A stretch of 64,000 nt of DNA, taken from contig CAMPDV010000111.1 of NCBI GenBank assembly GCA_946699065.1, positions 186,001 to 250,000 of the forward strand, given 5' to 3'. Positions 4,490 to 62,696 of the stretch are shown piece by piece; position 1 is the stretch's first letter, and every line of letters starts with the position of its first letter. Below the pieces are notes generated by a model. The model did not search any database. It was not told where the DNA came from and saw only the letters and a program-made list of their open reading frames with translations. Both the position numbers and the translations under genes were made by a program. This stretch comes from Loxodes magnus. Taxonomy: Eukaryota; Ciliophora; Karyorelictea; Loxodida; Loxodidae.

Positions 4490-5185
4490 ATAAAAAAATG
4501 TAAGGATTCTAAAGATGTTTCTTCACCACCTCCAAAAAGTTGGAGAGGAAACCTGAATCCAATCTTGCCATTCGTCTTTTTCTTAACCTTAACCTTAACC
4601 TTCTTCTTAATCTTAGCAATCTGGAGTTCAAGCAGTTATGACAAGCAGAAGAAATCCTAGAAAGCGACTCACGTAATAAGTCCTAAATCGGAGGAGGAAA
4701 ATCCAAAAAAGTAGATGAAGTTTGCTCCTCACCAGGAGGCGTCAGAATTTAATCCTTCTAGCAAGAAGAGCATAGAGTAGATCATCAAAGTGCTATTGAA
4801 CCACCAGGAAGACGTTAGCAAACCGAGAATGAATAATGAGAAGCTTATGGAGCAACTCAGCCTAGCGGAAGGAATAGAATCCAGTCTTATGTCCTAAGAA
4901 AGAGAACTAAGCACTTTCTGAAACATATCCTAAGACCAGATAAATTAATCCTAAAATTAGCTTCAGAAACAATCTGATCTGAGTAGCAGACTAGAAAAAT
5001 TAGAAAAGAAGCTAGGCTAAGAAAGGGGAGATCCAATAATGATTGAAGAGACCAAAATGAAGACTAAGGTAAAACTACAAAAAGTAGTGAAGAATTGTTA
5101 CTACTGCAATCCTGAAGGCGATGTTCACAAGAGAAAAGATAACTCAATAATGAAACTAATTTTAACAAGACCCTAAAGTAAAAGA
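4490..5185 (+). mobile_element. LINE-like element fragment, 5' part with ORF1 remnant (E1)
   Basis: A GC-richer island opening with a short A-run, ATG and the leader core CACCACCTCC, as in the elements ending at 20275 and 13480 on the minus strand. The frame around 4715-5170 encodes a coiled-coil protein. Its heptad region (LAEGIESSLMSQ ... QINQSQNQLQKQ) is clearly homologous to that of the 19.3-20.3 kb element. In the shared motif F-W-N-I-S this copy has TGA where the other has TGG, independent support for TGA as Trp. A decayed zinc knuckle follows (CYYC, with later His/Cys positions changed). The Gln/Pro-rich upstream part lies in another frame, so the copy is frameshifted. No endonuclease or reverse transcriptase follows. 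It is probably a dead copy of a LINE ORF1 region. Confidence 0.65.
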
Positions 5186-6082
5186 AGACAATGCTTAAAA
5201 CTTATTTTATACTTCAAATAAAATCTGTTGTATATTTTTATTAAACTTAATTTAAAATCATCAGCATTTTATTATTAAAGATTTAAAATAAAATAGATAT
5301 TTTAAAATAAATAAAAACCAAGTAATAAAACAGATTAATACTTGTTTGTAAATATAATAATTTAAAAAAAATTAAGAAATAAAAAATATCTAATATACTG
5401 AATACAGACAATAAATCTGTTATTCTTTTTAAAGTTTATACATCCTATATCAAGAAGCATAATTAATTTCTAGGATTTTATGCTTCTTTAAAAGAAATTT
5501 AATATTGCAAAACAAAATAGTTTAAAATATTTAAGCAAATTATCAATTTAGAAAAATCAATTTGTTTGGACTTTCAGTAAAGGTTTGGCTTATTATCCTT
5601 TCAGTATGAAAGAACTTAAAAACTAAGAAATAAAAAAATATTTAAAAAAAATTATAAAAAGAGAATTTTAGCAATCAGAAAAACTCTTATTTTTAAATAA
5701 GTAATAAAGTAAAGTAGATTAGATGAAAAAAAGGATAAAACCTAGAAGAAAAAATTTTTTGATCGAATAACAATAAAGCTTTGAATAAAATATATAGAAA
5801 CAAAATTAAAAAACTTTGCGAGAAGTAGAAACTATAAATAATAAAAAAATAAAAAAATAAAATAGATTATATTTAAAAAAAAACTTTAAATCAAAAGTGA
5901 ACATAGAGTCTAAAAAGACAATGCAACAAAAATAAAAAAAAAACGTATCTAATATCTTTCAATAAAAAAAGATAATTAGTGATATTGTTTTAAAATTTTT
6001 GTTTTTAAAGATAGATTTTTTAATTTATTTTTAGCAACAATTATTTTATCAAACTTATATAAATTTTAAATTACGTTTAAAA
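5186..6082. other. AT-rich intergenic tract
   Basis: Nothing supportable. Poly-A and AAT-rich stretches dominate. Confidence 0.45.
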
Positions 6083-6553
6083 TCAATTTCCTAACTAAAT
6101 TTTACTTTCAGATTTTATTCTTTCTCGAGTTTACATTAAAGCTTTACCCAAAAGATTCTTTCCACTTCCATTTCCTCCATCTCCTCATATTTTATCTCCC
6201 TTTGTATGTTCGAATATCTGTTTGTGTTTAGTTTTTAATAGAATAAAATTAAAATTCTCATTTTAAGTAAATTTTGTATATAAAGCTTCAAGCATTATGT
6301 CGTATTTTATCTACTCTCAATCATTTCGAATTTAAACTTTCCTTGTTTGTCCTAATTTCTTAGCTTTACCAGGAGTAGAAGCTTTCCTTATAGTTTCTTC
6401 ATATTCTGTTCCTTCAAACTTCATAGCCTAAAAGTAATGCTCAACAGTTGGCCATTATTTTTATTTAAGAGTTATCTCACAAGCATAAAAGTTAGAAAAC
6501 TCAGGAATATCCCCATTTAAGCCATGGAAGTATATATCTTCACTACTAACCAT
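6083..6553 (-). CDS. NADAR-domain N-glycosidase (YbiA/DUF1768 family)
   Basis: A 156-residue protein from ATG at 6553 to TGA at 6083, the usual size for a free-standing NADAR domain. The family fingerprints appear in order: FSNFYACEI near residue 20, WPTVEHYFQAMKF near 35-47, a K-x-L-G segment, NDWEQIKYDIM, and the C-terminal KIWGDGGNGSGKNLLGKAL. The tryptophans of NDW and of KIWGDG are encoded by TGA, and Gln is encoded by TAA/TAG at several sites. Characterised members hydrolyse the N-glycosidic bond of early, reactive riboflavin-pathway intermediates, or act in ADP-ribose/NAD-related metabolism; the substrate here is inferred only from family membership. It stands alone, with no neighbouring riboflavin gene. 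No intron or signal peptide is visible, so a soluble cytosolic enzyme is likely. Key residues appear intact. Confidence 0.9.
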
Positions 6554-7983: not shown

Positions 7984-8033
7984 ATTATAGAGCGCGTAGC
8001 ACCTCGTTGGTGCGTAGCTCTTTAATAAATGTT
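7983..8033 (-). repeat. LINE 3' UTR hairpin
   Basis: In element orientation the RNA would fold as GAGC, a small internal loop, GCACC, loop AACGA, GGTGC, internal loop, GCTC, directly before the microsatellite tail. The truncated copy at 52.9 kb keeps the fold, with its outer stem extended to seven perfect pairs (AAAGAGC with GCTCTTT). Such 3' stem-loops are what many LINE reverse transcriptases recognise; that role is inferred. Confidence 0.65.
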
Positions 8034-11000
8034 TCAATACATGTCTATTTCTTCAAGTAAGCCTTCAGGTAATAGAAATTCTTCTCTTATTAGTTCCATA
8101 TCTTCATCATTTTCTTCTTCATTATCTCTTGTTCTTCTGTCTTCTATCTATCTACGTTTTATTGATTCTTTGTTACAAGCGTCCATTATTTTTTTTACAT
8201 ACTTTGCTAATTTTCGTTTCTAATTCTTTTCTTCTTAATCAAGCTTTTATAAACTCATAAAAATTATCCTTTTCCTGCTCTATAGTCTTTTCCTATTTCT
8301 TTTTTTCAATCAATTTTCTTTTCTAATTATCCTTTTTTTCTTTTTTTTAATATGTTTTTGATATAATATTTTATTATCAAGTCAGTTTTAGCTCTTTTTT
8401 ACTCTTCTTAGATTCTAATGAATTTTTCGAATTTGCTGTACCTCATATTATATCAAATAGTTCTATTCCTTGTTTCTCTACTCCTATTGTTCTTAACTTT
8501 CAAATACATATTTATCTACTTTCTTTGTATTCTGAGAATTTTTCTATGATATGCCTTTCGTTTTCTCTTGCATCACTACAGAAAGGGAATTTGCTTGTCA
8601 CAACTAGGTGTCTTTCTTTTAAACAATCCTGACTCCCATTACATCTCGTTCTTATTCTAAATATGTAGCAAATTTCTTCTTTTCTATTTTTATTGTATCT
8701 CAGGTAGTTGGGTGATCCTACTACATATTCATCAAATCATGTTATTCTATACTGTAGAGTTGTTATTATTTACTCCATTCTTTCTCTATCTTCTATGCAT
8801 ACTCTATGATCTCAAATTGCACGATTAATGTTTTTCTTCCCTTTTTGGTTATTATTACCATCATCTATAAATATATCTTTGTCTTCAATTTTTAATTCTA
8901 ATTTTATTGTCGTGCAATATTGTTCAAATATAAAGTTCTCTTTTTTACTTAGGTCGAACATTAATCCATCTACTGCTTTTTCTTAGTTACCTATTAATCT
9001 GCCTCTTAATCTCAGCGTTTTCTGCCATAGGTAATGTTTAAATTTCATAAACTGTAACTCGTGTTCTAGCATCTCATTTTACACTTAGAAAGGGGCAACT
9101 ATGATTGCTCGTAAAGATCTTCTCTATATTATTTCTAATTGCTCCATCACTTATTTTCCTACAAATTATTCACAATATGGGATAACTTCTGTCCCATAGC
9201 TGAATACTGAGCTTACGAACGTTTTTATCATTATTCCTGCATTATATGGTGTTAATCCCTTATTTATTGTTATTTTACCCAGTATTCATGTTTACATCTT
9301 TTATGCTGCTTCTAGTCTATTCTCCATGTGTTTTTCAAAAATGATGTTCTCTTCTATTATATGATCGAGATCTAAAAGGCCCTTACTCTTTCGATCCTTA
9401 AATTTTCCACCTCTATAGTATTTCCAATATTTTCTCAGTTATTATTTTCTGCTAATTTTCATATCATTCATTTTGTTTTATCTGCAATTTCCAGTTTGTA
9501 TTTTTCTGCCCATGAGGTTAAATTTTTGATTACTTCCTCTAATTATTATCATTCACTTATTAAGGCTAGGTCATCTGCATATGCAAAACATCCTGCATAT
9601 ATTTCTTGTGTTCATCCCTCTTCGTTTTTAAAGTCTATCGCAATTCCTAGCTTTTAATCTTCCAAGTTATGGAGGAGTCTTGCTATTATTAAGTTAAATA
9701 GTCTTGGCGACGTTATGCTTCCCTTTTTTATTCCTTTATTTGTCGCAAATGATTTTGCTATTTATTCTTTGATTTTAAGTTTAATTTCTTCTTCACTGTA
9801 GAAGTTTGCTAGGAGTTTAATTATCTATTCCGGTACTTTTAGATCGTTTAGGATTTATCATGTATCTTTTCTTTGCACCGAGTCGTACGCTTTTTTAATA
9901 TCAACAAATATTACGAAAACATCTTTTTTGTTCCGTATTGATCATTTCTATACTGTTCTTAGGTTGAAAATTTATAGTGAGCATGATTTTCCTTTTTTAA
10001 AGCCATATTAATATTCGCTTTCATCATTATGCAGATATCCTTATAGTTGCTAGAAAATTCATGCATCTACTATTTTTAAAGCATGATTCAGTAAAGAAAT
10101 TGGTCTATAATTCATCGGGTTCATCTGTCCTCCTTTTTTGTATATTAATATTATGTATTATTATTTCATCTCTTAAGGTATTACTCCCTCTTAAATCATC
10201 TTAGCTATCATTTTACATGCTACTTCTGTTAATTTTTTCCCGCCTGCTAATATTTTACCTACTTGTATTTCATCAGGTCCTGCTGCTTTTCATTTCGCCA
10301 ATTAGTTTATGTTTTCTCAAATTTCATATTCGTTTACCACTATTTATCTCTTGTTTAAGAATTTAGTTGGTAACGTATTATCGCCATCTTCATACAGTTT
10401 CTACCATTCATCCCTAAAAGTATTAACATCTTCTTTTGATAAGGGTACTTATTAATTATTTCTTCTATTAAGTAAGTTTTTTAGTTTCTTCCACATATCT
10501 GTTAGACTTCCTTTATTTACATTGTCCATAAATAGGTTTAGTTAGTTTCTTTTATCTTTTTTCTTGATTAAATGTATTCTTATCTTACTCTTTGGTATTC
10601 TCTTTGATTCTCGTTTTATTGATTTTCATTTATTTGCTCTCTATTCTTTACCCTTTATTTTAATTGTTTGCTGCATTTTCTAAAGATTTTATTACACTAT
10701 TTTGTTGTTTCTGAATATTTATATATCTTAAAGTTTTATGTTTTAAATTTTCCACATACCATTTAAACTCCTTCTTATATCTTTTTTTTTCATCATTTAT
10801 AAGTCTATGTGCCGTTTAGGTTATCGAATTCTTCTTCTTAGAGATCTTCTTGTATAAATCTTTCAAATTTTTCTTATATCTCTTTTTTCTTTAATAGTAG
10901 GTAATTTATTTTTGCTATCTTTTATGGCTTTCTTACTTCTTTACCCATCTTTACCTATATAATACCAGGCCTATGGTCTCCTATTACGTATGAGTAATAA

Positions 11001-13354
11001 AAATCACTTTTTATCACCTTTTCTCTCATTCTCTCTTCTATTAAAAAGTAATCTATTTTATACTCATTGTTTTAGTGAATAAAGATACCTATTTCAGTTG
11101 GGTCTAGGCATATTAAATTATTCTGTTCCATAAACTGTGTCATTCTCTTTCCTGCTGAGCTTGTTTTCTTTGGCAGTCATTTTTCTATGTGCGCATTTCA
11201 GTCTCCTATTATCATTATATTAAATTCTTTTTCTATTGCTTATAATTTAAATTCATTCACTAAATTATAGAAAGGCTCATAATGTTCGTTGTCGTTTGCT
11301 GCAGGAGCGTAGACATTTACTACTGCTAGTTATTTCATTATTTCTATTGCCATTACTCTCGCTTCTCCAAAAAGCGTCATTTGGTTTACTTCATTCTATA
11401 TCTCTCTGACCTCCTTACATATGTCGCTTCTACTATAGAATGCTACTCCTTTTCCTTTTTTTTATCTCACATTTATTAAGTTTTTATATCCTGCTATATT
11501 ACACATATCATTTTAGTCTTCAATCTAAATTTCTTATATTGCCATTATGTGGATACTTTTTTGAGTCATGAATTTGGATAGTGCCTCTTTTGCACTTCTT
11601 ACTCCCCTAACATTTGCTGTCCCTATTTTTATGACTTATTCTTAATCTTTTTTTACACCCATTCCCTCTACTTCCTCTTCACCTTATTCTTCTTTTTATT
11701 CATCTTCCTTCTCCACCTTTTCTTCTTCTTATCTATCATTCTATGCTTCCATATTATTTTCTTTATTAGTTCTTTCCCCTTTTTTATCTTTTTCATCTCA
11801 TTATCTACCTCTTCCTTCTTCTTATCTATTCTAATCTTCTTCTTCTTTTTCCTTTTCCTATTAGTTGAAGTCGGATAATTGTTCATTTTTGTTTTTCTGT
11901 TTCCTAGCATAGTACATTCTAATTGAAGTTTGCTTCAATTTACTTCTTTCTTCTCACTTTTATCTTGCATCTTATTCTTTTTCTTCTTGAGTTTGCTCTA
12001 TTTCTTTTTGCTTTTTTTCTTTATTTACATTTTTCCTGACATACTACATTATGCTATTTTGTTTTTTTCTTATTTCTTCTGTTAGGTTTTAGTGTTTTTA
12101 CCATCACCTATCCTATCCTTTTCTCTAATTTGCTTTATGGTATATCTTATTATTTAGTTGATTGTTTTCTATTTTATTTAATTATTTGAACATTTCTCTA
12201 TCCCTCTGTCTTACATATGTCTTATTCCATTTTGATGAAAAATAATTTTTATTTATTCTTTTAGCATAAAAAACTTTTTATTATTTAATTGCTTAGTTGT
12301 TTTAATTATTTTTCTATTCTCCCCATTTTATTTCCTTCTCTTCTTCCCTTGATTCCTCTATAATAGATTATTCTTTTTCTCCAGTTATCCTCTTATTTGC
12401 TTGATTTGCTTCAAAGTCTGGTTTGTTTATTGTTAAAATAACTTCTCCTTCAAGCATCTCTAATTCTCTTGTATGTAGCTTTTTCCTTTTTGCTGCTTCC
12501 ACCCTTCTGCATTGCTGGTCTGTGTGCCCTTTCACTTTACATAGGCAGCAGATAAAATTTACTGGGTGTTATATTCTCATTTTGTTTCCATTCAAATCTA
12601 TTACTTCTGGTATCCTCTTTGCTTCGTCTACATCCTTTAAATCTAGGTAGACTACACTGCTCCCTGTTAGCATTGTTGTGTTTGGATATGTATGCTATAT
12701 CTCTCCTATTGATTTTCCATATTATCTTATTATTTCCATTACTTCCTTCATATTTGAGTATTCGTTAATTATGAAGTAAATTGGGTAGTTATGAATGCCA
12801 AAATATTCCAATTAGTTTCTAGCTTAGATAGGAATTCTAACTCCTTTGAATGTTCATTCCCTGAATTAAGTGAAATGTTAGTATCTTTCTTCATTTTTAA
12901 ATACCAAGTATACAATTCCGTTTTATTTCACTATAAACTTCTCCACTGCTTGTCCGTAATCCTTCCATATTTGATTTCTAAACACTTGTATGACTTCTTA
13001 GTCTTATGCCTTTTTCTCTACTAAATCAGTGTTTTCCAAGTAATGGTTAAAGTAAATTGCGGCCACCATTTCTGATAAATCATCATAGGCATTTTAGTAG
13101 ACCCTTTACATTTATTCTTCAGGGACGTTGGCTGAAATGAGTTGTTCATTATTTTGTTAAATTATTACTTAGGTTGTTTACTTTTTTTGCCACATTCCTT
13201 TCTTATTTTGTGCTCCTCCTTTTAGTATAGTTCGACCAATCATGGGTATATTGCTATTTTTTTTCTATTATTCGTTCTATTATTTCGTGTTCGTTCGGTC
13301 AGTTAGTTTGGTCCTGCGTAGTCTGAGGTCTTGCATTATTAGTCTGGTTTCCAT
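8034..13354 (-). pseudogene. LINE polyprotein: RRM-like and CCHC, endonuclease, reverse transcriptase
   Basis: From ATG at 13354 one frame runs through an RRM-like region (EYFGIHNYPIYFII ... VVYLDLKDVDEAKRI), a CCHC knuckle (CCLCKVKGHTDQQC, near 12510-12550), a long Lys/Glu-rich linker, and straight into the endonuclease. Endonuclease motifs are KIGTANVRGV, IMAIQEIQ, NVYAPA, IIGDWNAHI, YKIDYFLIEE and GDHRPG (about 11640-10970). After a run of nine A on the minus strand (10782-10790) the frame shifts, and it shifts again near 10660. The reverse transcriptase then shows WKAAGPDEI, MNYRPISLLN, GFKKGKSC, FVIFVDIKKAYDSV, GIKKGSITSPRLFN and the catalytic CFAYADDLALI (about 10300-9560). A further shift precedes the C-terminal region with RTRCNGSQDC ... 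H ... C ... H near 8530-8650; the acidic C-terminus ends at TGA 8036-8034. Gag-like and pol parts seem joined in one frame; an ATG at 11662 could start a separate ORF2. Confidence 0.82.
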
Positions 13355-16613: not shown

Positions 16614-18424
16614 ATGGGAAGCAATAATTGCTCTAGTTAAAAGTGCGAATATTTTAACTGTTTTAGTTCTAAATCAATTCAAAATCAGAGTCAGTAGCAA
16701 TAAAAAATCGATGAAATAGCAAAATAAGTAGAAATAACTCAGACTCAACTAGAGACGACAAATATCGAGCAAGATCAAATAAGAATTAATGAAAATAATT
16801 CTAGGAGAGAAAACTAATCTTGAATAAGACACTTTAAAGCTAAATAAATTTTAGTCTAAAACTATAGTTGTAATTAGATTCCAAAAATAGAATTTACAAA
16901 GCGAGAATAAAACAATAAATTTTCTATTAATGATTTCAGCTACCAAAAAATCATAGAATCTCCTTTACAAGCTATCATTACACGAAACAAGTCTCAAGAA
17001 ACAGTTCAACTACAAATCTATAGTTCATCATATATCTTCACAAATGAGAAAAAATTTGAAGATGAATACTCTTTTTAAAAATAAATTGGAGAGGGAAGTT
17101 TTGGTAAAGTTTTCCTAGCAAAAAATAAAAAAAATAATAAATTATTTGCTGTAAAAATTATTAACAACCAGGGTAAAAGAGATCTAGATCTGTATGAGTT
17201 TTAAATACTATAATAGCTTGTAAGTTTTAATTTTAGAATCATCCTTATATAGTAAAACTCTATGAATTTTACGAAGAAGGAGAGTAAACTAAATTTATTG
17301 AAGAATTTATCCAAGGAAAAAATTTAGGCGAAATTCTAGAAAAGGAAAAATGAATCGACGAAAGACGAGTGAAGATAATTATAAAATAGATTCTTTAAGG
17401 AATTTCATACTGTCATAAAAAAGAAATATTGCATAGAGACCTAAAGCTTGAAAATATTATCTGTTCTCACTTTGAAGATGTAGAAAAATTAAGAATCAAA
17501 ATAGTAGATTTTGGTCTTTCAGTCAGTTTAAAATCGGCTAAAGGAAACGAGGTTGTCGGAACTTTAGTCTACTTAGCTCCAGAGTCTTATTAAGGAGTAT
17601 ATTCGAATAAAAGCGATGTTTGAAGTATAGGAGTTATAATGTATACTCTACTAACGGGACACTTTTCCTTTAAAATACCTGAAAAAGAAGATTTAATAAA
17701 AAGATAAAAGTATAGAAAAATATTTAAAGTCAATTAGCATTAATTGATCTTAAATAAAATATCTAATGAAGCACAAGATTTAATCTAAAAAATGTTGAAC
17801 TCAAATCCAAAAGAAAGACTAAGTGCAGAATAATGTCTTAATCATGAATGGTTTTAAAGCTAAAAACCTTAAAAAGCAGCAAAATGCAAGAAATGCTTGG
17901 AGAAGCTATTAAGAGTAAAATCCTTTAAAAAAATTTAGATTCCTTTTAGGCTATTTTGCGTTTCTAAATTTGTTGATTTTTAGCATAGATAGCACCTAAA
18001 AGAAGTATACTCTTGAATAGATAAAAATTAAGATGATAAAATTACCCAAAAAGACTTATTAAGAGTTTTTAAAAAATTAACCAAGTATACAGTAAACGAA
18101 AAGGATGTGATCTAAATTTTTACTTCTTTAGATATCCATAATAATGGATTTTTATAATATTAAGAGTTCTAAATTGCTTATTATAAACTAATAAAAGATG
18201 GGCAGCCTTCTTAAGCATTAGACAAAGCTATTTAATGCCTTAATTAAGAAAATGATTAAATTATAAAAAAGTAAAATATCCTCGAATTTTTCAGCGGAAA
18301 AATAAAAAATGAATAAGTTGATGAAATAATTCAAGAATTAGAATTTGATAGTCAAGGAAATATAAGTGTAGATAAATTCAAGAGAATTATATTAGATGAC
18401 GAAAGCACAAAGCTCCTTAATTGA
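16614..18424 (+). CDS. Calcium-dependent protein kinase (kinase domain plus EF-hands)
   Basis: 597 residues in two exons, 16614-17219 and 17237-18424. The start MGSNNC offers Gly2 and nearby Cys, suggesting myristoylation and palmitoylation and hence membrane attachment; this is inferred. After a Gln-rich leader of about 150 residues the kinase domain shows IGEGSFGKVF (158-167), AVKI with Lys181, HRDLKLEN with Asp270, DFG at 293-295, LAPES and SDVWSIGV. The Trp of SDVWSIGV (331) is a TGA codon. The C-terminal half has EF-hand loops: DKNQDDKITQKD (464-475) and DIHNNGFLQYQE (501-512) look calcium-competent; two further ones look degenerate. This order is that of CDPKs, Ser/Thr kinases activated by calcium in plants, apicomplexans and ciliates. 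Four TGA codons are read as Trp and the last TGA (18422) is taken as stop. Dozens of TAA/TAG are Gln. Confidence 0.93.
17220..17236 (+). other. 17-base spliceosomal intron
   Basis: The sequence GTAAGTTTTAATTTTAG interrupts the kinase frame in phase 0 after codon 202. Removing it joins FQILQQL to NHPYIVKLYEF, the expected kinase subdomain IV. Keeping it shifts the frame and destroys the kinase. It has GTAAG at the 5' end and TTTTAG at the 3' end. Confidence 0.9.
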
Positions 18425-19321: not shown

Positions 19322-20275
19322 AGTTTTCCGTTTTAGGGATTTCCAACCCCGTCAGGAAGACAGCAATTCATGCTCCCTGCTGTTAAATATAAAAGTTCGG
19401 GTCGCCCAATTTTAGCGAGATTGGGAACTCAGATTTTTCCAGGTTTTCCCTCCTTTAACTTGCCTTGATTCCATCTTAATCTTTTATATTGATCCATCCG
19501 GGTTGCAATGCATTCTTTTCATTCTTGCTTCTTCTTTTTTCTTCTTTTTTTTTGTTCTTTTATCCAATAGTTTCTTTATTTCTATTAGAATTTCTAACAC
19601 TTCCGATAAAAATGTCATACGCTTCCACTGCAGAAACATTTCTTTTTTATTTTTAATTATTTTCCTTGATTTGTTTGCTCTTCCTAGGCTTCGATTTCCA
19701 TTTGTATAGTTACAGTTTCGCTTTACTCTTTTTTAAAAGTTTACAATTTCTCTTCTACTTTTCCGAGTCTGTTATCCATTTCAGTCTGTTTCTAAAGCTA
19801 ATTTTAGGATTCGTTAATCTGACTTTGTGAGATATTCCAAAAGGCGTTAAGATTTCTTTTCTAGGACATAAGTCTTGACTCAATTCCTTCTGCTAGGTCT
19901 AGCTTTGCAATCAGCATATCATTGTCCTTCTTCAATCTCTTGAACTCTTCCTGGAAGTTCAGTACCACTTTGATGAGCTACTCCATGCTCATCTGGCCAG
20001 AAGGGTTGAACTCTGATACCTCCTGGTGGAGAGCAGACTTCATCTGTTTCCTCGGTTTCTCGCTTGAGGTTGGAGTTTCCGTGTGTATATTCTTCAAGGT
20101 TGGCTTTCGTTCGTTTTGTTAGATTCCAAGTTGTTAGTTCAGTGTTGGTTAAGGTTGTGATAGAGAAGATTGTTAAGATTATTAAGACTTGGTTTCTTGC
20201 TTCCTCCCCTTCCTTTTTGTCTTAGGAAGAGGTGGTATAGAAGCCTCACTTGAAACCTTCAACCATTTTTTTAAT
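19322..20275 (-). mobile_element. LINE-like element fragment, 5' part with ORF1 (E2)
   Basis: Read on the minus strand it starts with an A-run, ATGGTTGAAGG and the leader TATACCACCTC, as in the 13.48 kb LINE. A Gln/Pro-rich N-terminus (SQPQPTLNQQLG) is followed by a coiled coil that aligns with the 4.5 kb element: LAEGIESRLMS, FWNISQSQINESQNQLQKQ. A Cys/His cluster (CFCSGSVWHFYRKC, with TGA as Trp) resembles a shifted CCHC knuckle, then comes a strongly basic stretch. The far end (19325-19425) is GC-rich and reads as GKIWVPNLAKIGRPELL in the same frame. No endonuclease or reverse transcriptase follows. The coiled coil differs from the RRM-like ORF1 of the full LINE, so this is a different subfamily. 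Confidence 0.65.
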
Positions 20276-21603: not shown

Positions 21604-23119
21604 AATTTGATTGAGGCCTTTTAAAAAAAAAAACTTTATTCAAAAAATGATGTTTTCAAAAGAACTGAATATACATCAATTTCCTTCTCATTCTAAACTC
21701 AGAAAAAATTTAAAGAGTTAAAAATAAAGGAGATAATTAAACTTATGATCTAAAAGCTGAAAAAAATTTATAATTTTAAATCGTGGTATTTCTATTATAT
21801 ATGCCGGATTTTTAGATTTTATTTAATATAATTTTTTTATTTGCTAGGTAAAATAAAATATTTTTGATTTAAGAGGTAAAATATTAAATATAGATATCCT
21901 AAAGGACTATAATATTCATTTAATTATTTTTTTATTTTTATTTCTTTTTAAATAAAAATCATACTTTTTATGAATTTAGTTATGGTATATTTAAATTTAT
22001 ATTCTTAAATGATAAATGTATATGGTTATTTTAAGATTAAAAACGATATATTTAGTAAACTCTTTAGAATATGAAAATACGAGGTGGTAACTTTTGTAAT
22101 ATTAATCTAATAGCCTTCATGGAAATAATATACTAAAATATTATTTAGATCTTTTCTCAATTGAAAAGGGTAAGAATAATACTCGTGCTTTGTTAAATCA
22201 GAAGCTAAAAAATAATATTTTAAGTTTGAACACTTTTTACCTATATAACTCTGTTTTAAAATTAAGATGAAGTTTCTAAAGTTAATCAATTATCAATCTG
22301 AAATGTAATTATTTAATGTTTAATTTAAATATCCCCAATTAAATTAATTGGATATAACTCATAGTAGATATTAACTACCATTATTAGTTTGATAGAAAGA
22401 ATTTATTAATTATTAACATTTTTATTTCTGGAAGAAAAATGTATTATCTTTTTGCTACTTGATGCAAGTTTTATATTTATTAGTATAAAATATCTCGATT
22501 GATTGATGAACTTTATTTACTATCTTCTTAAATTTATTTGAAATAGCTAAGAAAAAATGTAAAAAATATGAATAATAGAACAAATTCATTTTAATATAGA
22601 TTCGAGAATCCTAAGTATAATTATTTAATTTTTCTATTTAAACTTTATTTAATTTTCTTAAAAGATTCTAGATCATTAAGGCTTCCAAAAAATAAAAATT
22701 ATATAATCTAATTTTCTTGCATTGGTTATCAAATGAATACTTACCATAAAAATAAGAAAATTTTTAATCTCTTTATGAGAAATTTGTTTGATATTATTAT
22801 TTTTCATCAATCGATAAAAAATAAATAAATTCTGTATAAAATTATTTTAATTATATCTCTAATTAGAATTTATCCATCTTCCTTTATAGTTTTAAACATA
22901 TAGAATTTGTATTTTTATATTTAAAATATCATAATTATATATTAAATCTTTATTTTAGTTTCTTTTATCATTCTACTAAACAAATTTTTTTATTTTATTT
23001 CCCTTCACAAAATTATTTTTAGCTAAATACAACTCTTTTTAATTTAGATTTAATTATAGCAATTTATTTCTAAGTGAAATGTTTAATAATTTATTTATTA
23101 AACTATGAGAATAAAATAA
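21604..23119. other. AT-rich intergenic tract
   Basis: No motif or paralogue. The frame ATG 22289 to 22107 on the minus strand is short and compositionally random. Confidence 0.45.
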
Positions 23120-23190
23120 GGCTACTGAGGGGATCGAACCCTCGACCTTTTGATTACAAATCAAACGCACTACCACTATGCTAAGCAGCC
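23120..23190 (-). tRNA. tRNA-Thr(UGU), copy 1
   Basis: A 71-base cloverleaf. The acceptor GGCTGCT pairs with AGTAGCC. The anticodon arm is TTTGA-TTTGTAA-TCAAA, giving anticodon UGU (reads ACA). The T-arm is GAGGG-TTCGATC-CCCTC, with a good B box. No intron; CCA is not encoded. The sequence is identical in all five copies. The 3' flank on the minus strand is TTATTTTATT, a weak terminator. Confidence 0.95.
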
Positions 23191-26100
23191 TTCTTAGATA
23201 TCTTGTTATATATTTCTTTAATACCTTAAAAATGTACCAATTTTTTTATTTCTTAAGACTTTGATATTTCAATTAAATATATTAACCTCTAGATAGAGAA
23301 AATAAAGATATTTTAAATGATAAACTTCTAGAAATCTTTGAAATTAGATTTGATTATACTTTAAAGTGATTAAATAGCACAAAGGATTTTTACTGTTTAT
23401 CTGAAAATAATAATTTTGCTTATAAAATTTTTCTTAAATACTTTAATTGTCATTGCTGGGTTTACCTCTAATTTAATGTATGATATTTTATCTATTCATA
23501 TAGCAACTGCTTAGAAATTTTAATTATTTATCTATATAAATTAAGATTTTTGGATGCAAATATAATGTAAAAAATTATATTAATCTTTATTTATTTAGTA
23601 CTAAAATCCTAGAATCTTCAGAATTATATTAATCTATTAATTAAAATAAAAAGTAGAATTAAAAATATATAGGGGGACTTCATTATCTAAGTTAGAAGAA
23701 ATAAAATTACTAGTTAAAGTTAAGAAAAGCTACCTTACATTGTCTTTTTTAAATATTAAAGAAATAAAAGCAATTTGTAGCTTGATAGAAAATAAACTAT
23801 ATAGGTATATTTAGTAGGATTTTAAAATATTAAGAGTAAGTTCTATCTTAAATAGGTTAAAAATAGGATAAACAACAAATGATTTTCAAATTAAAAAGAT
23901 AAATAAACTATGCTAAGAAATGATTGTGCTTTTGTAAAATAATTTTTATCTAAAATAAAATTAGTTGGATTTAATTCATTATTTTATAGGCTTTTGCTTT
24001 TAACAGTGAATTAAAAAATAATAAACTTTATTCTTAATGATTTGGAATTTAATCTAATGTTTTTTCTTTGTAGGTTGTAAACAATACAGCTTTAATTACA
24101 ATTTAAGCTTAATCTTCATTTTTTATTATTTTAATGAAGATATATCAATTTTATATTTTTCAATTTCTTTAGATTATACTAGCATATTAAAGTTTCTATA
24201 TCTTAAAACTTAATGTTTTTAGCCTAATATCAAAAACCATTAAAAATATGAAGATTAAGACCAGACAATTTTATCAAAATCCAATAAATTTTATTTTTTC
24301 ATACAAAATGAACTTTCATGAAATTTTAAATTTAAAAAGAAAAATCTTTAAGGATTTAATAGAACAAATAAATGTTCTAAACAATCATAAGCACTTAGTT
24401 TAGTAGCATCAAAGAGGCTATTTTAAATAAAAACATCGTAATAAATTGTATTTGCATTGACTTTTTAGTTTAGCTGGCTAGCAAGAAAATTACGAATATT
24501 AAATAAATCTAAAATATAAGATATGGATAAAATTTAAAATTTCATTCTGATTCACATTTATTTTTAGTAGTTTCGAATTCATAAATTTCGAATTTTTTGC
24601 TTAATTTAAGATAATATAATCAAAAAGCATATAAAATCATTTTTTCTTAAGTTTTAAGATAAACTTATCTACTTAATAAAACTAAATAATATCAATGTGT
24701 TTTCCTAAAACATTTGCAATAGTAATGATTTGCTATAAATAGAGTAAGCTTCTTTTTAGAATTTAAGAATTTTAATTTTTTAATATTATATGCTTCCTTC
24801 CCCCATTTTCTATTTGTATAGCAAAAACAGAATCATGCATAACTTGCTTTAAAAATTTAGGAATATAATAATTTGCCTTTCAATTAGCATTATAAGCTGA
24901 TTAAACAATGAAAGTAATATCACCAGGCTTCGAGAAAAATTCCATTATCATATGAGCTCCATCAGCAGATTCAAAGTCTTTATTTGATACAATTAATTTT
25001 TTTCGCCTTATTTCATAAATAGATTCTTCGAATGAATTAATGAGTTTCCTACTTGGCTTATTTAAAATAGAAATAAAAATTAAGCATAGAGTCCAATTAT
25101 CCAAAGGCACTTCAAATTATTTAACTTATTTCACAATAACTTTTATAGATGAGTAAACGAACAATTTTCATGAGAATAAATTGGTAATGAACACTTCGTA
25201 AAATTATCTCATTTAGCTTATAAAAAAAGGATATTAAAATTAAAAATTTTAGGAGCTAAATAGTTTAATATTAGCTTAAGGGAACGCTTATTTGTAATAT
25301 GCACTCCAAATCTGTCATTTTTTAGTAGATTAATTATGATCTAAATAATTCCGTCTTAGAAAATTGGATCTGCCTTTCATAATTGATAAATAAGAGAATT
25401 TAAATCTTTATCAAAGTAATCAAATTTAAAATGTATAATTTTAGGTGATTTAGGAGAGATATTTAGATAGAAATCAAATATTTCTTTATTATTTATTGAG
25501 TATGAAATTTAAATTAAAGCTAAGCCTAAGGAAAAATTTAGGTTCAGTCTAAAAAAATAACAAATATCTTTAATCTAATATAATCACCTATAGATTCTTC
25601 CTGCTATTTCTTCTAAGTGTTAAAAACTAAGACTTAGTTTTTTCTTTTATCATCAAAAAATTTATATAATTTCCTTTGAAAGATTTCTATTAACATTCTT
25701 CTTTTAACTCTATAACTAATATGATTTAACTAGTTAAATCAAATTTTAATAGTTATAAACGTAAAATGCTGTAAGGTTTAAATAAATATTCGGAATACAG
25801 CCTGAAGGTACTTAATCAACTTTTTCTTATCTAGCTCTAAAAGCCTTAGAGAATCATTTAATTTTACCTTAAATAAAAAGATAAAATAATAGAATAAATT
25901 AACTATTTATAGAGTGTTGTCTTAGATGACATATTTTCTTCTATATATTAAATAGATTCTATAGTGAAAGAGTATTCCCTTAGTATATTTAACTTGCTAA
26001 GACTTATTATTAGTTTGAGATATATTAATGGAAGTTTATTATAAATATAATGCTATTATCTATTATCTGTTTTATTGAAAATATTTAATTATAACTTTCT

Positions 26101-28213: not shown

Positions 28214-28765
28214 ATGGATCATCCAGGCAGCTCGCTTGATTAAAGTGTTAAAAGCAGCAATCTAAAGAGAATTTATAACTTTCGTTGTAAAGAGAGTGAC
28301 CAGAGCAATAGATTTAAGAGATAGGAGCACTTAATTAAAATTTCCACGGAGGGAAAAATCCGCTATATAAAACTCGATCTGATTGAAAATGAAAGAAAAA
28401 ATTCAGTGCCTCAGTTGAATTTACTAATGAGTCCGCTTATTCTTAGGAGATAACTTCAAAAGAATCGCTAAATAAGTCCTACTTTCCAGTTAAAATAAGA
28501 AGATATCTCTCAATAGAAAGAATGAAAGAGTTTCCCTATTAAAAGAAGTAAATATGTGCTAGAAATTGAGAAATTTGCAATAAAATAGCAGGCATCTCAA
28601 CACGAAAAGACTCTAAGGATGTAATATTAAATATAATAAGACGCATTCAAAGACTATAATAGATATAAAATGCTCACTAATGAACATTTTGTATGGCTGA
28701 TTTTTATTGTCCTAGTAATTTTTTACAAGATGTTCTGTTTTTTCCTTTAAGTTCCCCTGCTTTGA
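28214..28765 (+). CDS. Small tail-anchored protein, family A, copy 2
   Basis: 183 residues from ATG to TGA. The N-terminus (MDHPGSSLDQSVKSSN) and the block ISTEGKIRYIKLDLIE are nearly the same as in the copy at 43.5 kb. The shared centre NSVPQLNLLMSPLILRRQL and the C-terminal DYNRYKMLTNEHFVW, followed by a hydrophobic run LIFIVLVIFYKMFCFF, define the family. One internal TGA (KEWKSF) is Trp. About eight residues follow the hydrophobic segment before the TGA, which sits at the same position as in copy 1 and supports that stop. Topology is inferred: cytosolic domain with a C-terminal membrane anchor. A tRNA-Thr gene follows 1.3 kb downstream. Confidence 0.78.
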
Positions 28766-30045
28766 TTTAAGTAATTTTTCCATGCAAAATAAGATTTTCT
28801 TCCTTTATCAATTACTATCTTAATATATTTGCTTTAACTAATATATAATAAAGGTTAATGAAGCTTTAATACTAAAAGGGTTATAATTTTAAATTTCTAT
28901 ACTGTAAAATAAGTAATTTCGATGCTTTGTAATAATTAATGAAATATAAGGATTTATTATATTTAATTTTAAGGAAATATAGCTAAGCATTTATTAAAGC
29001 ATTCCCATTATATCCTTCTAGAATTATAATTAAACATCAGACTTTATTAAGCATTTCGAAGCATTCAAAATGAATCTTTTTCAATAGTTTTATTTCTGCT
29101 TTCAAATAATCTCTAAGTTAATTGTTTTGTCTAATTTGCTTATAAAAATACCAATGTAATAAGTAAAAATAATAGAACTAGTAAAGCATTTATTAAGCCT
29201 CTAGCTTGAAGACCCCCTTTAGTAAATCTTTTAGTTAGATTTTTATTTTTTGAGGAATTGCTAGGTTATTTAATTTTATTTCCTTAGAAAAAAAGCAAAT
29301 TAAATAAAGTAAAATTTGAGTTTTAAAAGTTAGGAGATAAGCTAAAGATATAAATTTTAATATATCATAAAGAAGCAAAAGTTTCATCTAGTTAGATTTT
29401 AGATCTACTATCTAGTTTTATAAATAAGTGAAATTTAATCATTAGGAAAATTAAAAAAGCTTTAGTAAATTTTAATTTAAGACGACTATACGTATATTAT
29501 AGGATAAAACATAATAATTAATCTTAGGGTTTCTTTATCTTATGTCTTATTATATTTGCCTTAAATTAAATTTAATAATACATAAAGTAAACTTATCTAG
29601 TTTAAATTAGAACATAGATTTATCGAAATGCTATTTTGGTTCTTATAGCAGTGCTTTATAAATATTTTTATTTATCTTAAAACTTTAATTTTATTATGTT
29701 AAAACTAAATAATTACAAAGACTGAAGCTATTCTTTAAATTGATTAAATAGATTTTATTTAATATTTGCTATTGGAAGTAAAATTAGATGAAATAGATAA
29801 TTCTATTAAGAAAGAAATTCATAAAAATTGAAAAGAAAGAGAGATACTTTGATTTGAGGAAAAAAGTTAAAGTAAGTTAGTAAATGAAATTATAAAAATA
29901 AATATCAGAAAGAAAGATTGGCTAGATAATAATAAAAACCTTCTTTTGTTTAAATTATTGATTTCCAGGCTTTTGAGCTTATTTGAAAATGATAATGTAC
30001 TTATTGGAATAATATTTAAGGAAGAAATGAATTACCTTTTAAGAA
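28766..30045. other. AT-rich intergenic tract
   Basis: Nothing supportable between the family A gene and the tRNA. Confidence 0.45.
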
Positions 30046-30116
30046 GGCTGCTTAGCATAGTGGTAGTGCGTTTGATTTGTAATCAAAAGGTCGAGGGTTC
30101 GATCCCCTCAGTAGCC
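30046..30116 (+). tRNA. tRNA-Thr(UGU), copy 2
   Basis: Identical in all 71 bases to the other four copies. The upstream flank TTACCTTTTAAGAA resembles that of the 57.3 kb copy (ATACCTTTTAACAA), suggesting those two arose from one duplication with some flank. It is followed by TTATTTTT. Confidence 0.95.
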
Positions 30117-33100
30117 TTATTTTTGTCATTCAAATTTGTATTTAAACTTTTTATTTAGCTTAAACATTATTCATTTATCATATCAATTATAATGTTTCTT
30201 TAAGCTATATATAAAAAGGAGAATAAATCTAGAGATTTTAGATTAAAATAATTTTCTTATTATGAGACATCAAACAACGAATGACTTTTTCCATTTTCTA
30301 GAATTTTAAAATTTAGCTAATATTTTAAGACTTGGTATACTTCTAGATCTAAGATATATAATAATTTTAAAACTACTAAAGCAGAAATTAAAGTCCAGTT
30401 ATCATATAATTAAAAAAATAATTGAAGCATTATAAATTTTTTTAATCTTAATTGAAGCTTTTTTCATTGTAAATTTATCTAAACATTTCTTTAAATTTAG
30501 TTAATTTTTTATCTTCTAAACTTCATTTTTTTATCATTTTAAATTAAAGAGGAAAATAATTTTAATACTTGTTGCTTTTATACATAACAAATTCAAAAAT
30601 TCTCTTATATTTATTCATAAATGCCATGTTGATCTGATTTTTTTGAAGAATAAATAATTCATATTAATAAGAAATATAGGTACAGGAGGTAATCATAAAG
30701 GTGTTTTTACTATTATGAGCAGACTCTTTTACAGTGATATCAAATTTTAAAACAAGTATCAATAACTTCAAATTTCGTATCTCTTAAACCTCTATTTTAT
30801 AATCTTTAGCCAATTTAGATAAGAAAATTAAAAATTCTAGCCTTATTTTATAATTATATCTATAAATTTCAAACCTAATAAAACTTTATAGCTTAAAGAA
30901 CTATTTATTATTATGTTTAATTAACTTTTTACCGAATAAAAAGAGATAAATTATAAATAATAAAAGCTTTAATCATTAGACTGCTTATATTTATTATTTT
31001 AGATTTAGTTAATAAATAAATCACAGCATTCTTGCTATAAAATTAATAATATTTATGTATTATTATAATTTGTTCTCGCTAACCCTTCTAAATAGCTTTA
31101 ATTATTTAAAGTATTAAGTTTTCTTTTATTTAATTGCTCTAAATAAAGTTTATATTTTCTTCTTTGCTCATTTAATTATCCTTACTTCTCCTTTTTGAAA
31201 AGCTTTTTAACTTAAAATTTTGACTTTTAATTTAAAGCTTCTTTTGATTTTTTATTATTATCATATTAAAACTAAAATATCTTACAATTTTAGTTTTAAA
31301 TTGGTCTTATAAGAGAAGCATACATAAAGAAAATAAAGATAGTTAAGGTATTTAAATTATTGATATAAGCTTTTAATTATAATATCTACAAGAGCTTAGA
31401 ATACATAACAAATAAATTAGTTATACTTTTTATCTTTCAGTTAAAGAAGATAATACATACCTAAGAAATCTAAACTTTTATATATTAATAAATAATTTCA
31501 GCTAAAGCTATAAGAAACTTAGATATTTAAATATGATATTAACTTATTAAGAGTTTTATTCCAAAGCTCTTATTAAAGATAAAATTAATAATTAACTTCT
31601 TATTAGGGAGATAAAAATCTATTATATGCAAATAGAATAATTGTTTATAATTTTGCAAAAAGAGGTAGTTTGCTTTAACTAGGTATAAATGCAATAAATA
31701 AATGGAATATCTATCCAAAAATAATTTAAAATTAATATCTTTTAGTAAATTCTGAAATAATTTTAGTTAGAAACTCTGGAGTATAACTATAATATGATTC
31801 TTATATTTAGAGCCTTGAAATCGTAAAAATACAAACAACAAGTGAATAAAGAAAACTTCTTCTTTAATTTTATTCTAATAATTTAGCAAATATTGCTTCT
31901 TTATTCAGGTATTTAGAATAATTATTATTTAAATTATAAAAGCAAACATAGTTCAGTCTAATTTTTTCCATAACTCTAATAAAATAAATATGCTCTTAAA
32001 ATGATTCTATTAAATAGCTTCTTTTTTAAAAATATCTAGATCTAAATTATGTTAATTATTCTAAAGCAAAAATATAAAAATTAATTTCTAAGATTTAAAT
32101 AACAAAATTTGATAAAATTTAATAAAGTTTGATGAGATTTAAAATAGAGTGTTTAGTAATAGATATAAAGGAGATCTTTAAGGTAAATTTTATGAATAAA
32201 AGACTTATATGGATTCTTAGGTGTTAATTATAGCAGCCAAATATAATTTAATAAATCTTATATATATGTAAATAAATTTGCTTATTAAACATCTTTTAAC
32301 TCTTAAATTAGAAAATTTGCTTATTATATAAGCATTAATTTTCTTTATTCTCACACAGATATTTAAAATTTTGGAAAGTTAATTAAAGTAAAAGGATAAT
32401 GATAAATAGAAAGGCTTATTTACGAATGTATAAGTTTAGGTGTATTTTAAATGTCAAGATAATTTCTTAGCAAGCAGATTTCAAATGTAAGAGTTTCTGA
32501 TAGAATATTTTGTGTTTTACTTAAAGATTTAATTATCCTCCAAAGCTATACTTATATTTTCTTTGATAAAAGGAAACTTAAAAAGAGAAATTACCTTACT
32601 CTTATACTAGGCAATAATTTTAAGCTTTATATTTATTTAAGTTTGCAAGGAATTATTAATCTCATAATAGATAGTGACTTTTTATAAAAGAATTATCATA
32701 AATTGCAAAAGCTTTATTAGCCTAATAGAACTAATTAAATATCTATAAATAGCAACTAAATTTACAATAAATTGCTAATGATGGATTATTTTAAAAGATA
32801 GTAGAACTCATAAACCATTTCCAGATAAATTTAATTTTATTCTTTTTAATATGCTATAAAATTTAAAAAATTAAAGGCTTAGAGATAAGCATCGTTTTAA
32901 TAATTTAACATTGTGACTACAATGAAAAAATATTTTTAATAAATCAATCATTAATTTATAATCATTAGGACTTACTCAACATTAACTAAATTATGGCTCT
33001 TTCATCTTCAATAACTTCTCACAATTTTTTTAAGTTTAATAAAAAGTCATCAATAGAACTAAATTACTTAATTTATCTCAAAGAGATTATACATCAATCT

Positions 33101-43468: not shown

Positions 43469-44924
43469 TTTTATTATGAATTAGAAAATAAATAAAAAGT
43501 AAGTGATTGCTATTTTCTATATAAGTGCATTTATTAATATTTATACTTGTTTATTTCATTAATACTCATAACTATCCTCTAAATTGTTATAAAGAACTAT
43601 ATATCTACTACTTTATTTCATACCTAGATTTAATTTATACTGCTTGCTACTTCTAAGCTATATAACTAAAAATAGTTTTGAAGTATGCTAGTAACTGATT
43701 TTTTGACTTTAATAAGCAGAAAATTATGAGAATGGTTATCACTAAGAAACTAATTTTTACTTAGAATTTGATTATTTAAATTGTACTAAATTCTCAATAA
43801 ATTTATGGATTTTTAAACTAATACTTAAAATTGATAGGCTACTCTACTATACCAATAAACAGAAAATTTAGGTATGAATTTAATTTAGAAACAATTTAGG
43901 ATTCTTATTTTAGCTTTATCCTAAATTTCAATTAATTTTGATTCAATAAGTTAAATTAGTTACCATTAGATGCTTATAATTGAGCTATTTAAATTCTCTA
44001 CAATTATACCTATTTCTCATTTTTTCTCTCTTAATTCATATCTTCTTATTATATCCTTTTTTCTCTCAAAACAGATTTAATCATCTGTTAAAGTATAACG
44101 ATATCCGAAAACCATATACCTCTTTAAATTGACGAAATGTATGTTTTTCTTTATTTCTTTTTAACTTCTTCATATCTTTAGATAAGTATAGCATTAAAAC
44201 GATTATCATTCTTAGGTTCAAAGTGAAATTAAATATAATTAAAGAAAAGCATAAATGTGTTTTTAAGATACTTATTATATACAGATATTTTATAGATAAG
44301 TCTAGATATTTTTATTAAAAATAAAGCATTAAATATATTAAGTTTTTCTCTTTTGAAACATATTTATTTTTATTTTTAATTTCAATTATTAGAACTCCTA
44401 CAATGTTTTGTTCTGAAATATTGTCTTTCTTATGTGGTTAAAATATTAGATAATAAATAAATATGTTTCTTAGTTAATGATGAATTATAAAGCTTTGAAT
44501 TATAATTATGGTTTTATATTTATTATTTCTATCTTTTATATTTGTTCATTTTCATTAATGCTTTATAATTTTATAGTCTTATAATCATAATTTCACTTGG
44601 CTTCGCAATTTCGTTTAAAAAGCTGCTTTAGAAAGCTTTTGAAGGCAATTTTATTTTCATGTTATATAAATGTTTTAGATTTATTTTGTTAATGCTTTCT
44701 TAACTTGCCTTTCATTCATACTTACTTTTTTCTATGGTTTATTATTTATAAAAATAAAAAAAATGTATAATGGTTCTTTTTATTTGATTTATATTCCCTC
44801 AGTAAATAACTTAGTTTAATAATTTCTTAATTTATCTTTATAAATTTATTAGCATTTTACTTTTTATGGAATTAAATCTATTATCTTTATTAATTTAAGG
44901 AATATATGCTAAGATAAATAAGAA
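43469..44924. other. AT-rich intergenic tract
   Basis: Presumed divergent upstream region between family A copy 3 (minus) and the tRNA (plus). Nothing else seen. Confidence 0.45.
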
Positions 44925-44995
44925 GGCTGCTTAGCATAGTGGTAGTGCGTTTGATTTGTAATCAAAAGGTCGAGGGTTCGATCCCCTCAGTAGCC
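44925..44995 (+). tRNA. tRNA-Thr(UGU), copy 3
   Basis: Identical 71-base gene followed directly by a run of six T, a typical RNA polymerase III terminator. Confidence 0.95.
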
Positions 44996-57339: not shown

Positions 57340-57410
57340 GGCTGCTTAGCATAGTGGTAGTGCGTTTGATTTGTAATCAAAAGGTCGAGGGTTCGATCCC
57401 CTCAGTAGCC
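57340..57410 (+). tRNA. tRNA-Thr(UGU), copy 4
   Basis: Identical 71-base gene with a run of six T immediately downstream. Its upstream flank resembles copy 2 at 30.0 kb. Confidence 0.95.
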
Positions 57411-60347: not shown

Positions 60348-61391
60348 ATGTGGAGAAATAATATAACACATAATTTGAGTACCTTATAAGTTAAAAGATC
60401 TACCTCTAAACTTAGCAAAGTAGTGTCTAAGAATCAGTTTGAAGTATGTAGTTAAGACTCTACTTTATCTTCTTATAGTAATAGGAATCCAGAATCTCCT
60501 TTAGTAAATTAGGTTTATGTTTAAGTTAGCCCTAATTTATATTGTAATGATTCTGTAGTTAGAAGTAAAAGTAATGACACTATCAGAAATTTTAGAGTTG
60601 AGAAAGTTTTAGTTAGATGGTAATAAATGTAGAAATTTGCTAGTCCAGTACGTGTCAAAGACTCTGAATAACCTAAATACGGAGATTTGAAGATTGAACA
60701 TTTGAAGAAATTCAGTTCTAAGTTATATGGCTCTGAATAATCTTCTAATTCCTTATCTCCTTCTCTTCAGCCAAGCTAAAGCATATTGAATGTAAAAGAT
60801 CTTAATTAGTAAACTAAGTATGTTATTTCAATTAATAACTCTCCTAATTAAAATTTAGGCAAAGAGGTTTTAAGAGTAAAGCAACTCAAAAATTAGAACT
60901 GCAGGCCTTTAAGAAGTACGGAAAATCTGATTTTTTAGAAATCTTAATCTTCACTTTTACTGAAAAGGAGTAAATAAAAGAGTAGTTCAAATATAAGTTC
61001 AAGGAGTGAAAGCAGTTAGCTCTAGATAATTAATAATTAATTAATCAGAAGCAATAAATCAACTTAATCTTGGATTTTAGGAGCTTTTTTTTTTGAGACA
61101 GAAACAGTAAAAATTAATTCTACTTCATGTCTTTCTTTACCTAGCGAGAACACAGAAAGCAAAAGTTTATCTGACATAGATGGTGAAGAAAATGTTCCAG
61201 AATAAATTACTCAAGAAGTTTAAATAAGTAACAAACAGACTAAGCAGCATAATCTTAAACAAATTAAAGAGAAAATAAGCGAAGCGATTGCAATTTTGAG
61301 GGAAAAGATAAATTAGGATTAGTAGATAATAAATATTGCAAGTATAATATCTTATCTTTTTTCTAGCTTTATAAAGTTAGGAATGAGATGA
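60348..61391 (+). CDS. Family B protein, copy 2 (unknown function)
   Basis: 347 residues from ATG to TGA, no internal TGA. It shares with the 53.7 kb gene the start MW, KRSTSKLSKVVSK, RSKSNDTIRNFRVEKVL, RVKDSEQPKYGDLKIEH, EVLRVKQLKNQNCRP and KSQSSLLLKRSK. The acidic region (LSDIDGEENVPEQITQEVQ) is followed by a helical Lys/Gln-rich segment and a hydrophobic C-terminus (IINIASIISYLFSSFIKL), a possible membrane anchor. The conserved basic and Ser-rich blocks look like short linear motifs, perhaps phosphorylation or binding sites; this is inference. It lies on the same strand as its paralogue, 5.7 kb downstream, with a tRNA between. Confidence 0.78.
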
Positions 61392-62625
61392 AGCGTAGAA
61401 AAACTCTTCGTATTATTTATAATAAAAGAAATTTGTAATAAAATTTCCTTCTTTAAACTTAGATTAATTTTTCTAGTTTGATAACTAATTTAGTAATCAG
61501 TCTTTTTCCAGATTCAATTATAAATTTTAATTCGGTTTATTTTTTCCCTTTTAATCCTTATTAATAAAAACTAAATTTTAATTCAAGATAGCCATAAAAA
61601 CATTTTGACTGTCGAACTTTGTTAGTGAAATAAAAAGGAGATGATTTAAATATTTATATGGTTAATTTAGATTTCTTAGGAAATTTAAAAATAAAATGAA
61701 GAAAAGGTTAAAAATTGAAAATAAGCTAAAGAAACATACTAAGAACTAATCTTTTAGTAGCTTATACATAAGAACATTTTATAAAGTTATTGAATTAAAG
61801 CAAGAACAACGGTATATTTTTTCTTATTGTTATTAAGCATATTTAAGCTTAGGAATTAAAAAGTATGAAATAATCATTAATATGAACAAAGAAAATAGAC
61901 AGACTGAAGTGTTTATAATATTATAAAATTTAAGAAAGAATGATTTATTAAAATAATTTATATAAAACTAAAATATTTAGGTGATGACAACCTATTTTAT
62001 TAAATTTGTTATAGGTATGGAATAGCTTAAATTTACTTTTTATAATTCTGAAAAAGATATTGATTTCGTATTTTATATATGTAGAAATAAATCTTTTTAT
62101 AGATTATTACAGTTGCTTTTTATATGATATAAGATGTAAAACTAAACTTTTTTTAAAATTAAAGAGAATATAAAAATTAAATTTATTTTAATAGACATAA
62201 TAGTTCAATTATGCTAGTTTGAACAAAATGTAATACTAGTAATTTTAAAAAGCTATTAAAGTTATGTTTGCTAACTTAAATAACTAATTTAAAAATAAAA
62301 ATAAAATCAGCGAATTTAAGATTTAATACTAGAGATAGTGATTTTAATACTTATCTAATATTTCTAATACTTTAAACTTTTTTATATACTTATCCTTGAC
62401 ATGAAGTTTAATAATCTAGCTTCTATAATTAATTTCCTTTAATAATTCCTATAAAAATAAAACTCTAAGTAAATATAAAGAGCTTTCTTCAGTTAAAAAT
62501 ATTTATTTAATAGACTTATTAAAGCATATTAGTTAATTTAAGTTTAAACTATTTAAATTAATAATTTTCTGGCTTATTTTAAGATTGTATAAAGCACTTA
62601 AATCTAATTCTAATGCTTAAAAAAA
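61392..62625. other. AT-rich intergenic tract
   Basis: Nothing supportable. Confidence 0.45.
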
Positions 62626-62696
62626 GGCTACTGAGGGGATCGAACCCTCGACCTTTTGATTACAAATCAAACGCACTACCACTATGCTAAGCAGCC
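62626..62696 (-). tRNA. tRNA-Thr(UGU), copy 5
   Basis: Identical 71-base gene on the minus strand, followed in its own direction by a run of seven T. Confidence 0.95.

Follow-up and report, generated by a model that had tools for sequence, protein, structure and literature searches.

Genes and repeats of the window

The DNA analysed here (termed the window) is a stretch of 64,000 nucleotides, corresponding to positions 186001-250000 of contig C111 in the Loxodes magnus assembly, which, as scanned here, consists of 705,730,643 bases in 7843 contigs; for the L. magnus macronuclear assembly a size of 706 Mbp is given in the portion of PMC11441545 available. The following features lie within the window (position 1 being its first letter):

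4630..5193, forward strand: ORF1-like copy, with a TGA in the motif F-x-N-I-S at 4916-4930
6083..6553, reverse strand: NADAR-domain gene (Pfam NADAR, E 4.1e-36), with a terminal TGA at 6085-6083
7994..13354, reverse strand: copy of a non-LTR retrotransposon (LINE), with limits taken from a weak coding-score segment
16614..17219, forward strand: kinase exon 1, with a sense TGA at 16821
17220..17236, forward strand: putative kinase intron of 17 nt (GT..AG), the removal of which restores the frame
17237..18424, forward strand: kinase exon 2, with sense TGAs at 17351, 17621 and 18014 and a terminal TGA at 18422-18424
19325..20221, reverse strand: second ORF1-like copy, with a TGG in F-W-N-I-S at 19842-19828
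60348..61391, forward strand: copy 2 of repeat family B, with 347 TGA-free codons and then a TGA at 61389
23118-23191 (reverse strand), 30045-30118 (forward), 44924-44997 (forward), 57339-57412 (forward) and 62624-62697 (reverse): tRNA-Thr(UGT) genes

The kinase gene (16614-18424, forward strand) is of the CDPK type, combining a kinase domain with EF hands. When all of its stop-type codons are masked, its top PDB match is 4ysj (E 4.6e-59) and its best relatives are calcium-dependent protein kinases; a comparison of its DNA with a phage collection yielded no match. The gene forms one open frame only when nucleotides 17220-17236 are removed; the unspliced frame departs from the kinase after position 17219. 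Its presumably spliced form contains four internal TGA codons, 32 TAA, 8 TAG and a single TGG, in addition to the terminal TGA. The length of this intron, the only one found, equals the mode of 17 bp reported for L. magnus in the available text of PMC11441545, which also states that about 95% of heterotrich introns are 15 nt long.

Within the NADAR gene, internal TGAs at codon 79 (6319-6317) and codon 123 (6187-6185) both fall on a conserved Trp, and a TAG at codon 42 (6430-6428) falls on a conserved Gln. A comparison with YbiA (2b3w), using masked letters, gave an E-value of 4e-32 and placed both internal TGAs opposite Trp. The gene has 90 phage relatives, each less than 60% identical to it. 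Relatives on viral contigs were found at 19 loci, of which three were dropped due to identical aligned sequences; within the 16 distinct relatives that remain, the three sites are occupied by Trp (15/16), Trp (14/16) and Gln (16/16), respectively, where the retrieval words, having been built from the W/Q reading and covering columns 40, 77, 79, 95 and 139, introduce a bias at the first Trp site and at the Gln site, both of which they touch, but not at the second Trp site (column 121), which is in none of them. (The PDB comparisons, by contrast, were fully masked.) The remaining TAA and TAG sites of the gene are variable. YbiA and the viral-contig relatives thus agree with the original prediction that TGA encodes Trp in this gene.

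The rest of the features are repeats or tRNA genes. The LINE copy harbors an endonuclease (about 11623-10967) and a reverse transcriptase (10139-9462) in separate frames, so that the copy is either broken or frame-shifted, and its frames contain TAA, TAG and TGA alike. LINE domains occur both in the window and in another stretch, L057, and their combination here (Exo_endo_phos_2 with RVT_1) matches that published for L. magnus, for which the accessible part of PMC11441545 counts about 2,700 RVT_1 and 1,200 Exo_endo_phos_2 copies. The five tRNA-Thr(UGT) genes, which have equal Rfam scores, are spread across 40 kb with members on either strand, and a sixth is located in the flanking stretch L040.

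The two ORF1-like copies (the term ORF1, like the designation of its product as a coiled coil, comes from the original prediction) do show the predicted exchange of TGA for TGG within F-W-N-I-S; because these are diverged repeat copies, however, this single G-to-A change is weak proof of a codon's meaning. Two further repeat pairs were defined, namely pair A (28214, forward strand, and 43468, reverse strand) and pair B (53716 and 60348, both forward). The members of pair A (28214-28750, forward; 43468-42932, reverse) are diverged copies encoding a short protein with a C-terminal hydrophobic stretch, and 118 of their 176 aligned residues are identical. Their first in-frame TGAs occur at different positions--at codons 104 and 184 in copy 1 and at codon 254 in copy 2; in pair B, TGAs occur in copy 1 from codon 311 onward, and the counterpart of copy 2's TGA lies past an alignment gap. 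The claim that the stops of two 'family A' copies align was therefore not reproduced with these pairs, which could not be matched with certainty to the families as named in that claim. Pairs A and B were also considered as evidence on codon meaning and rejected as too diverged: few of their stop-type codons face CAA or CAG, and at least as many face AAA.

Stop-type codons at conserved sites

To read codon meanings in a code-agnostic manner, all TAA, TAG and TGA codons were masked as X in six conserved genes, which were then aligned to solved structures (PDB), and the facing residues in the top PDB match were scored with a BLOSUM62 model. The six genes are the kinase and NADAR genes of the window together with four genes from elsewhere in the same assembly; they were divided into seven segments, for each of which only the top PDB match was used and gap columns were dropped. 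The outside genes derive from 20 stretches of 10 kb, with 20 chosen segments scanned with Pfam as W/Q translations. Codon-usage scores, which were tried as a gene finder and found to be too weak in the AT-rich DNA analysed here, served only for picking stretches because of this unreliability, and LINE copies were excluded from code inference because they are broken. Two of the genes found in this way encode alpha-tubulins (coordinates are those of their own stretches):

L053, 2183-832, reverse strand: diverged alpha-tubulin, with two TGA-Trp sites
L054, 9630-8266, reverse strand: canonical alpha-tubulin, ending at TGA

The tally leaves out the L054 tubulin, which has no in-frame TGA, as well as Pfam matches to a cupin (L047), a papain-like protein (L058), an EF-hand (L046), START and other domains on L044, a helix-turn-helix (L049) and an endonuclease (L057).

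At the 12 aligned TGA sites the facing residue is Trp nine times, Arg twice and Leu once, for which the model assigns 30.7 nats to Trp and 4.3 to Tyr, the runner-up. At 77 TAA sites (20 Gln, 11 Glu) Gln obtains 24.6 nats versus 8.4 for Glu, and at 32 TAG sites (10 Gln) it obtains 12.3 versus 1.9 for Arg. TGG faces Trp at eight of nine sites, and, among control codons with at least four sites, 52 of 55 were correctly recovered, the misses being ACC, GTC and GCC. The predicted meanings--TAA and TAG as Gln, TGA as Trp--are thereby recovered without presupposing either, and they are read directly from conserved sites. The nine TGA-Trp sites are distributed over tubulin (W21 and W346), the NADAR gene (two), a CHD/SNF2-type helicase (two), an SWR1-like helicase (one, within the shared DWNP motif) and two kinases (one each).

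For the window's kinase, the TGA at 17621, in the motif SDVxSIGV, is opposite Trp in all five of the chains shown by the masked search, as had been proposed for this motif, though these chains are mutually close relatives. The TGAs at 17351 and 18014 are opposite Arg in the top PDB match, and the one at 16821 lies outside of the aligned part. The likewise proposed placement of TAA and TAG at many Gln-compatible sites of the kinase fits both the 40 such codons in frame and the tally, in which Gln scores best for each.

That three of the 12 aligned TGA sites lack a Trp in the top PDB match counts against reading TGA as Trp. Another explanation would be the ordinary ciliate code, in which UAA and UAG specify Gln and UGA is a stop, so that TGA-bearing genes would be pseudogenes or mutated repeats. 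Indeed, the LINE copy changes frame, the ORF1 copies have diverged, and the L053 tubulin, which contributes two of the nine TGA-Trp sites, itself shifts frame within a run of As. Yet nonsense mutations would not favor Trp positions amid an otherwise conserved remainder, and here TGA falls on a conserved Trp at nine of 12 sites within well-conserved domains of several unrelated proteins. Moreover, the same reading in Condylostoma is backed by mass spectrometry and ribosome profiling, as published in PMC4967479 (cited here from part of its text). The pseudogene explanation consequently deserves almost no credence, and TGA within genes is taken here as Trp.

Gene ends and the choice of code

All four of the gene ends examined are TGA, and none is TAA or TAG; those of the two tubulins are decisive and those of the kinase and NADAR genes less so. 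In the L054 tubulin, TGA directly follows the acidic tail and the next TAA or TAG is the 22nd codon on; the L053 tubulin ends in TGA-TTC-TGA, with the next TAA or TAG 16 codons farther. UGA clearly terminates both of these genes. As predicted, a terminal TGA is present in the kinase and NADAR genes as well; a TAA, however, lies seven codons past it in the former and two codons past it in the latter, so that, on sequence alone, read-through to that TAA is possible and these ends are not decisive. UGA probably terminates these two genes also. The generalization that UAA and UAG would never serve as stops rests on few genes.

The last 35 sense codons of the kinase are free of TAA, TAG and TGA. 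When the kinase, NADAR and L053 tubulin genes are pooled, stop-type codons account for two of the 60 codons within the last 20 of each gene and for 70 of the other 1143 (Fisher p = 0.58), few genes being set here against a published depletion of UGA and UAA upstream of stops.

These ends bear on a second possible code, that of the Condylostoma type (NCBI table 28), in which all three codons are ambiguous and UAA and UAG are the usual stops. Here too each of the three codons has a sense meaning at numerous sites, and the TAAs behind the terminal TGAs of the kinase and NADAR genes are where such a code could place its stops. Both tubulins, however, end at TGA, and reading through (16 and 22 codons) adds residues missing from aligned tubulins; in addition, the 17-nt intron is of Loxodes length, as opposed to the 15-16 nt of heterotrichs. 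Of four genes, one lacks sense UGA and the other three have it at 0.4-1.3% of their codons, versus 0.042% in C. magnum, though this is a weak point because the karyorelict Parduczia has only 0.120% (both values from the accessible part of PMC4967479). Judging from that same part, the Condylostoma system resembles the present one in that all three codons can be sense and termination depends upon context, but differs in that there all three codons were inferred to be stops, whereas here TGA stands at all four ends, two of them decisive and two probable. A table 28 code thus appears very improbable, and the interpretation that favored a karyorelict code over Condylostoma usage is supported by the intron length and by the tubulin ends.

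The window is therefore best explained as karyorelict nuclear DNA of Loxodes magnus, using that organism's published ambiguous code, NCBI table 27 (probability roughly 0.96). In table 27, UAA and UAG specify Gln, and UGA means Trp within genes and stop at gene ends. The original prediction was therefore mostly right, both in its codon meanings and in its TGA ends; what did not hold up is the alignment of the 'family A' stops. The code of L. magnus is itself known and already published: the available text of PMC11441545 describes Loxodes as using table 27, with UGA as the sole stop and also as Trp, and contains no feature that was found to differ from those seen here. A comparable nuclear code is that of Blastocrithidia, in which, according to the consulted portion of PMC12153298, UGA is likewise Trp and all three codons are sense, one of them doubling as a stop; there, however, UAR is Glu and it is UAA that doubles.

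The two alpha-tubulin genes lie on the same contig, with about 16 kb between them, and do not use codons alike: L054 has nine CAR and five TAR codons and three TGG and no TGA, whereas L053 has one CAR and 16 TAR and no TGG and two TGA (Fisher p = 0.0012 for the Gln codons, a comparison picked after inspection of the data). Such a pattern hints that well-expressed genes may avoid reassigned codons. The frame change within L053, at about position 1830 (reverse strand), reflects either an assembly error or a pseudogene.

A candidate decoder of sense UGA

A tRNA-Trp(CCA) lacking the top pair of its anticodon stem is described as the UGA reader of several lineages in the available parts of PMC13092985 and PMC12005148, both of which list Loxodes as a carrier of this 4-bp-stem form. 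A tRNA-Trp(CCA) pattern was found at 163 places in the assembly, versus 44 for a reversed-pattern control. Among the 100 matches listed of these 163, 48 copies form a tandem array on C67 (482324-491201) with a spacing of 182-195 bp, and, again among the matches listed, at least 35 occur on C148 (155465-165278), namely 34 in an array with a spacing of 241-242 bp and one beside it. The matched letters are identical throughout the at least 83 tRNA-Trp(CCA)-like copies on these two contigs.

Eight small stretches were read, seven of which are tRNA-Trp(CCA) and one of which, on C12, is not a tRNA. The two copies read from C67 have A.C as the top anticodon-stem pair and the three read from C148 have U.C, but both of those read from C110 have a paired U-A; hence the stem is of 4 bp in 5/5 of the C67 and C148 copies read (out of at least 83), whereas the C110 copies (2/2) keep 5 bp. 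Because all five of the array copies read have an unpaired top pair, these sequences suggest that the 4-bp-stem class is the amplified one. Compared with the published 4-bp tRNA-Trp(CCA), for which the accessible part of PMC13092985 denotes the top pair as 26C.42U, there are here two different mismatches (A.C on C67 and U.C on C148) beside two 5-bp genes. Amplification as such is not peculiar to tRNA-Trp, since on C78 tRNA-Lys(UUU) and tRNA-Ala(UGC) also occur in regular tandem copies, spaced by about 1753 bp. Regular tandem matches to the tRNA family likewise occur on C103 (527 bp) and C158 (1752 bp), with a score equal to that of tRNA-Lys. The available text of PMC11441545 considers low-complexity repeats of the L. 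magnus assembly to be partly misassembled.

The U.C pair of the C148 copies also occurs in the dinoflagellate Amoebophrya sp. ex Karlodinium veneficum, whose 4-bp-stem tRNA-Trp(CCA) the consulted part of PMC12005148 equates with that of C. magnum. The same source considers UGA to be Trp, and UAA and UAG to be Gln, in this lineage, which thereby exemplifies the possibility that the window comes from another lineage with equal sense meanings. Its assembly, however, has 48 contigs as opposed to the 7843 here, and the 17-nt intron and LINE DNA of the window likewise speak against it, so that an origin of this kind is hardly credible.

Returning to the table 27 code of Loxodes, UGA is probably not decoded here by a tRNA-Trp(UCA), the type that the original prediction proposed to look for; on anatomical grounds, the 4-bp-stem tRNA-Trp(CCA) would be the better candidate: given its lost top pair and its tandem arrays, this tRNA could read UGA as Trp. 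As the literature implies, a UGA near the poly(A) tail of an mRNA would be taken as a stop, and one farther upstream as Trp; the median length published for 3' UTRs is 41 bp. One speculative elaboration is that sense UGA depends on tRNA dosage, with a scarce 5-bp tRNA-Trp(CCA) serving UGG and the tandemly amplified 4-bp class serving UGA. It is conceivable, though rather doubtful, that sense decoding of UGA would in this way beat the release factor except near the poly(A) tail. Equally tentative is the corollary that well-expressed genes would shun UGA and UAR and that weakly expressed paralogues would accumulate both.

More generally, a codon that specifies both an amino acid and a stop provides a test of how cells keep the two meanings apart. 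What is added here to the published code is a code-agnostic check on a few genes and a candidate for the decoder. The tandemly arrayed tRNA-Trp genes with a 4-bp stem, the most useful lead to emerge from the analysis, make the balance between tRNA and release factor testable.
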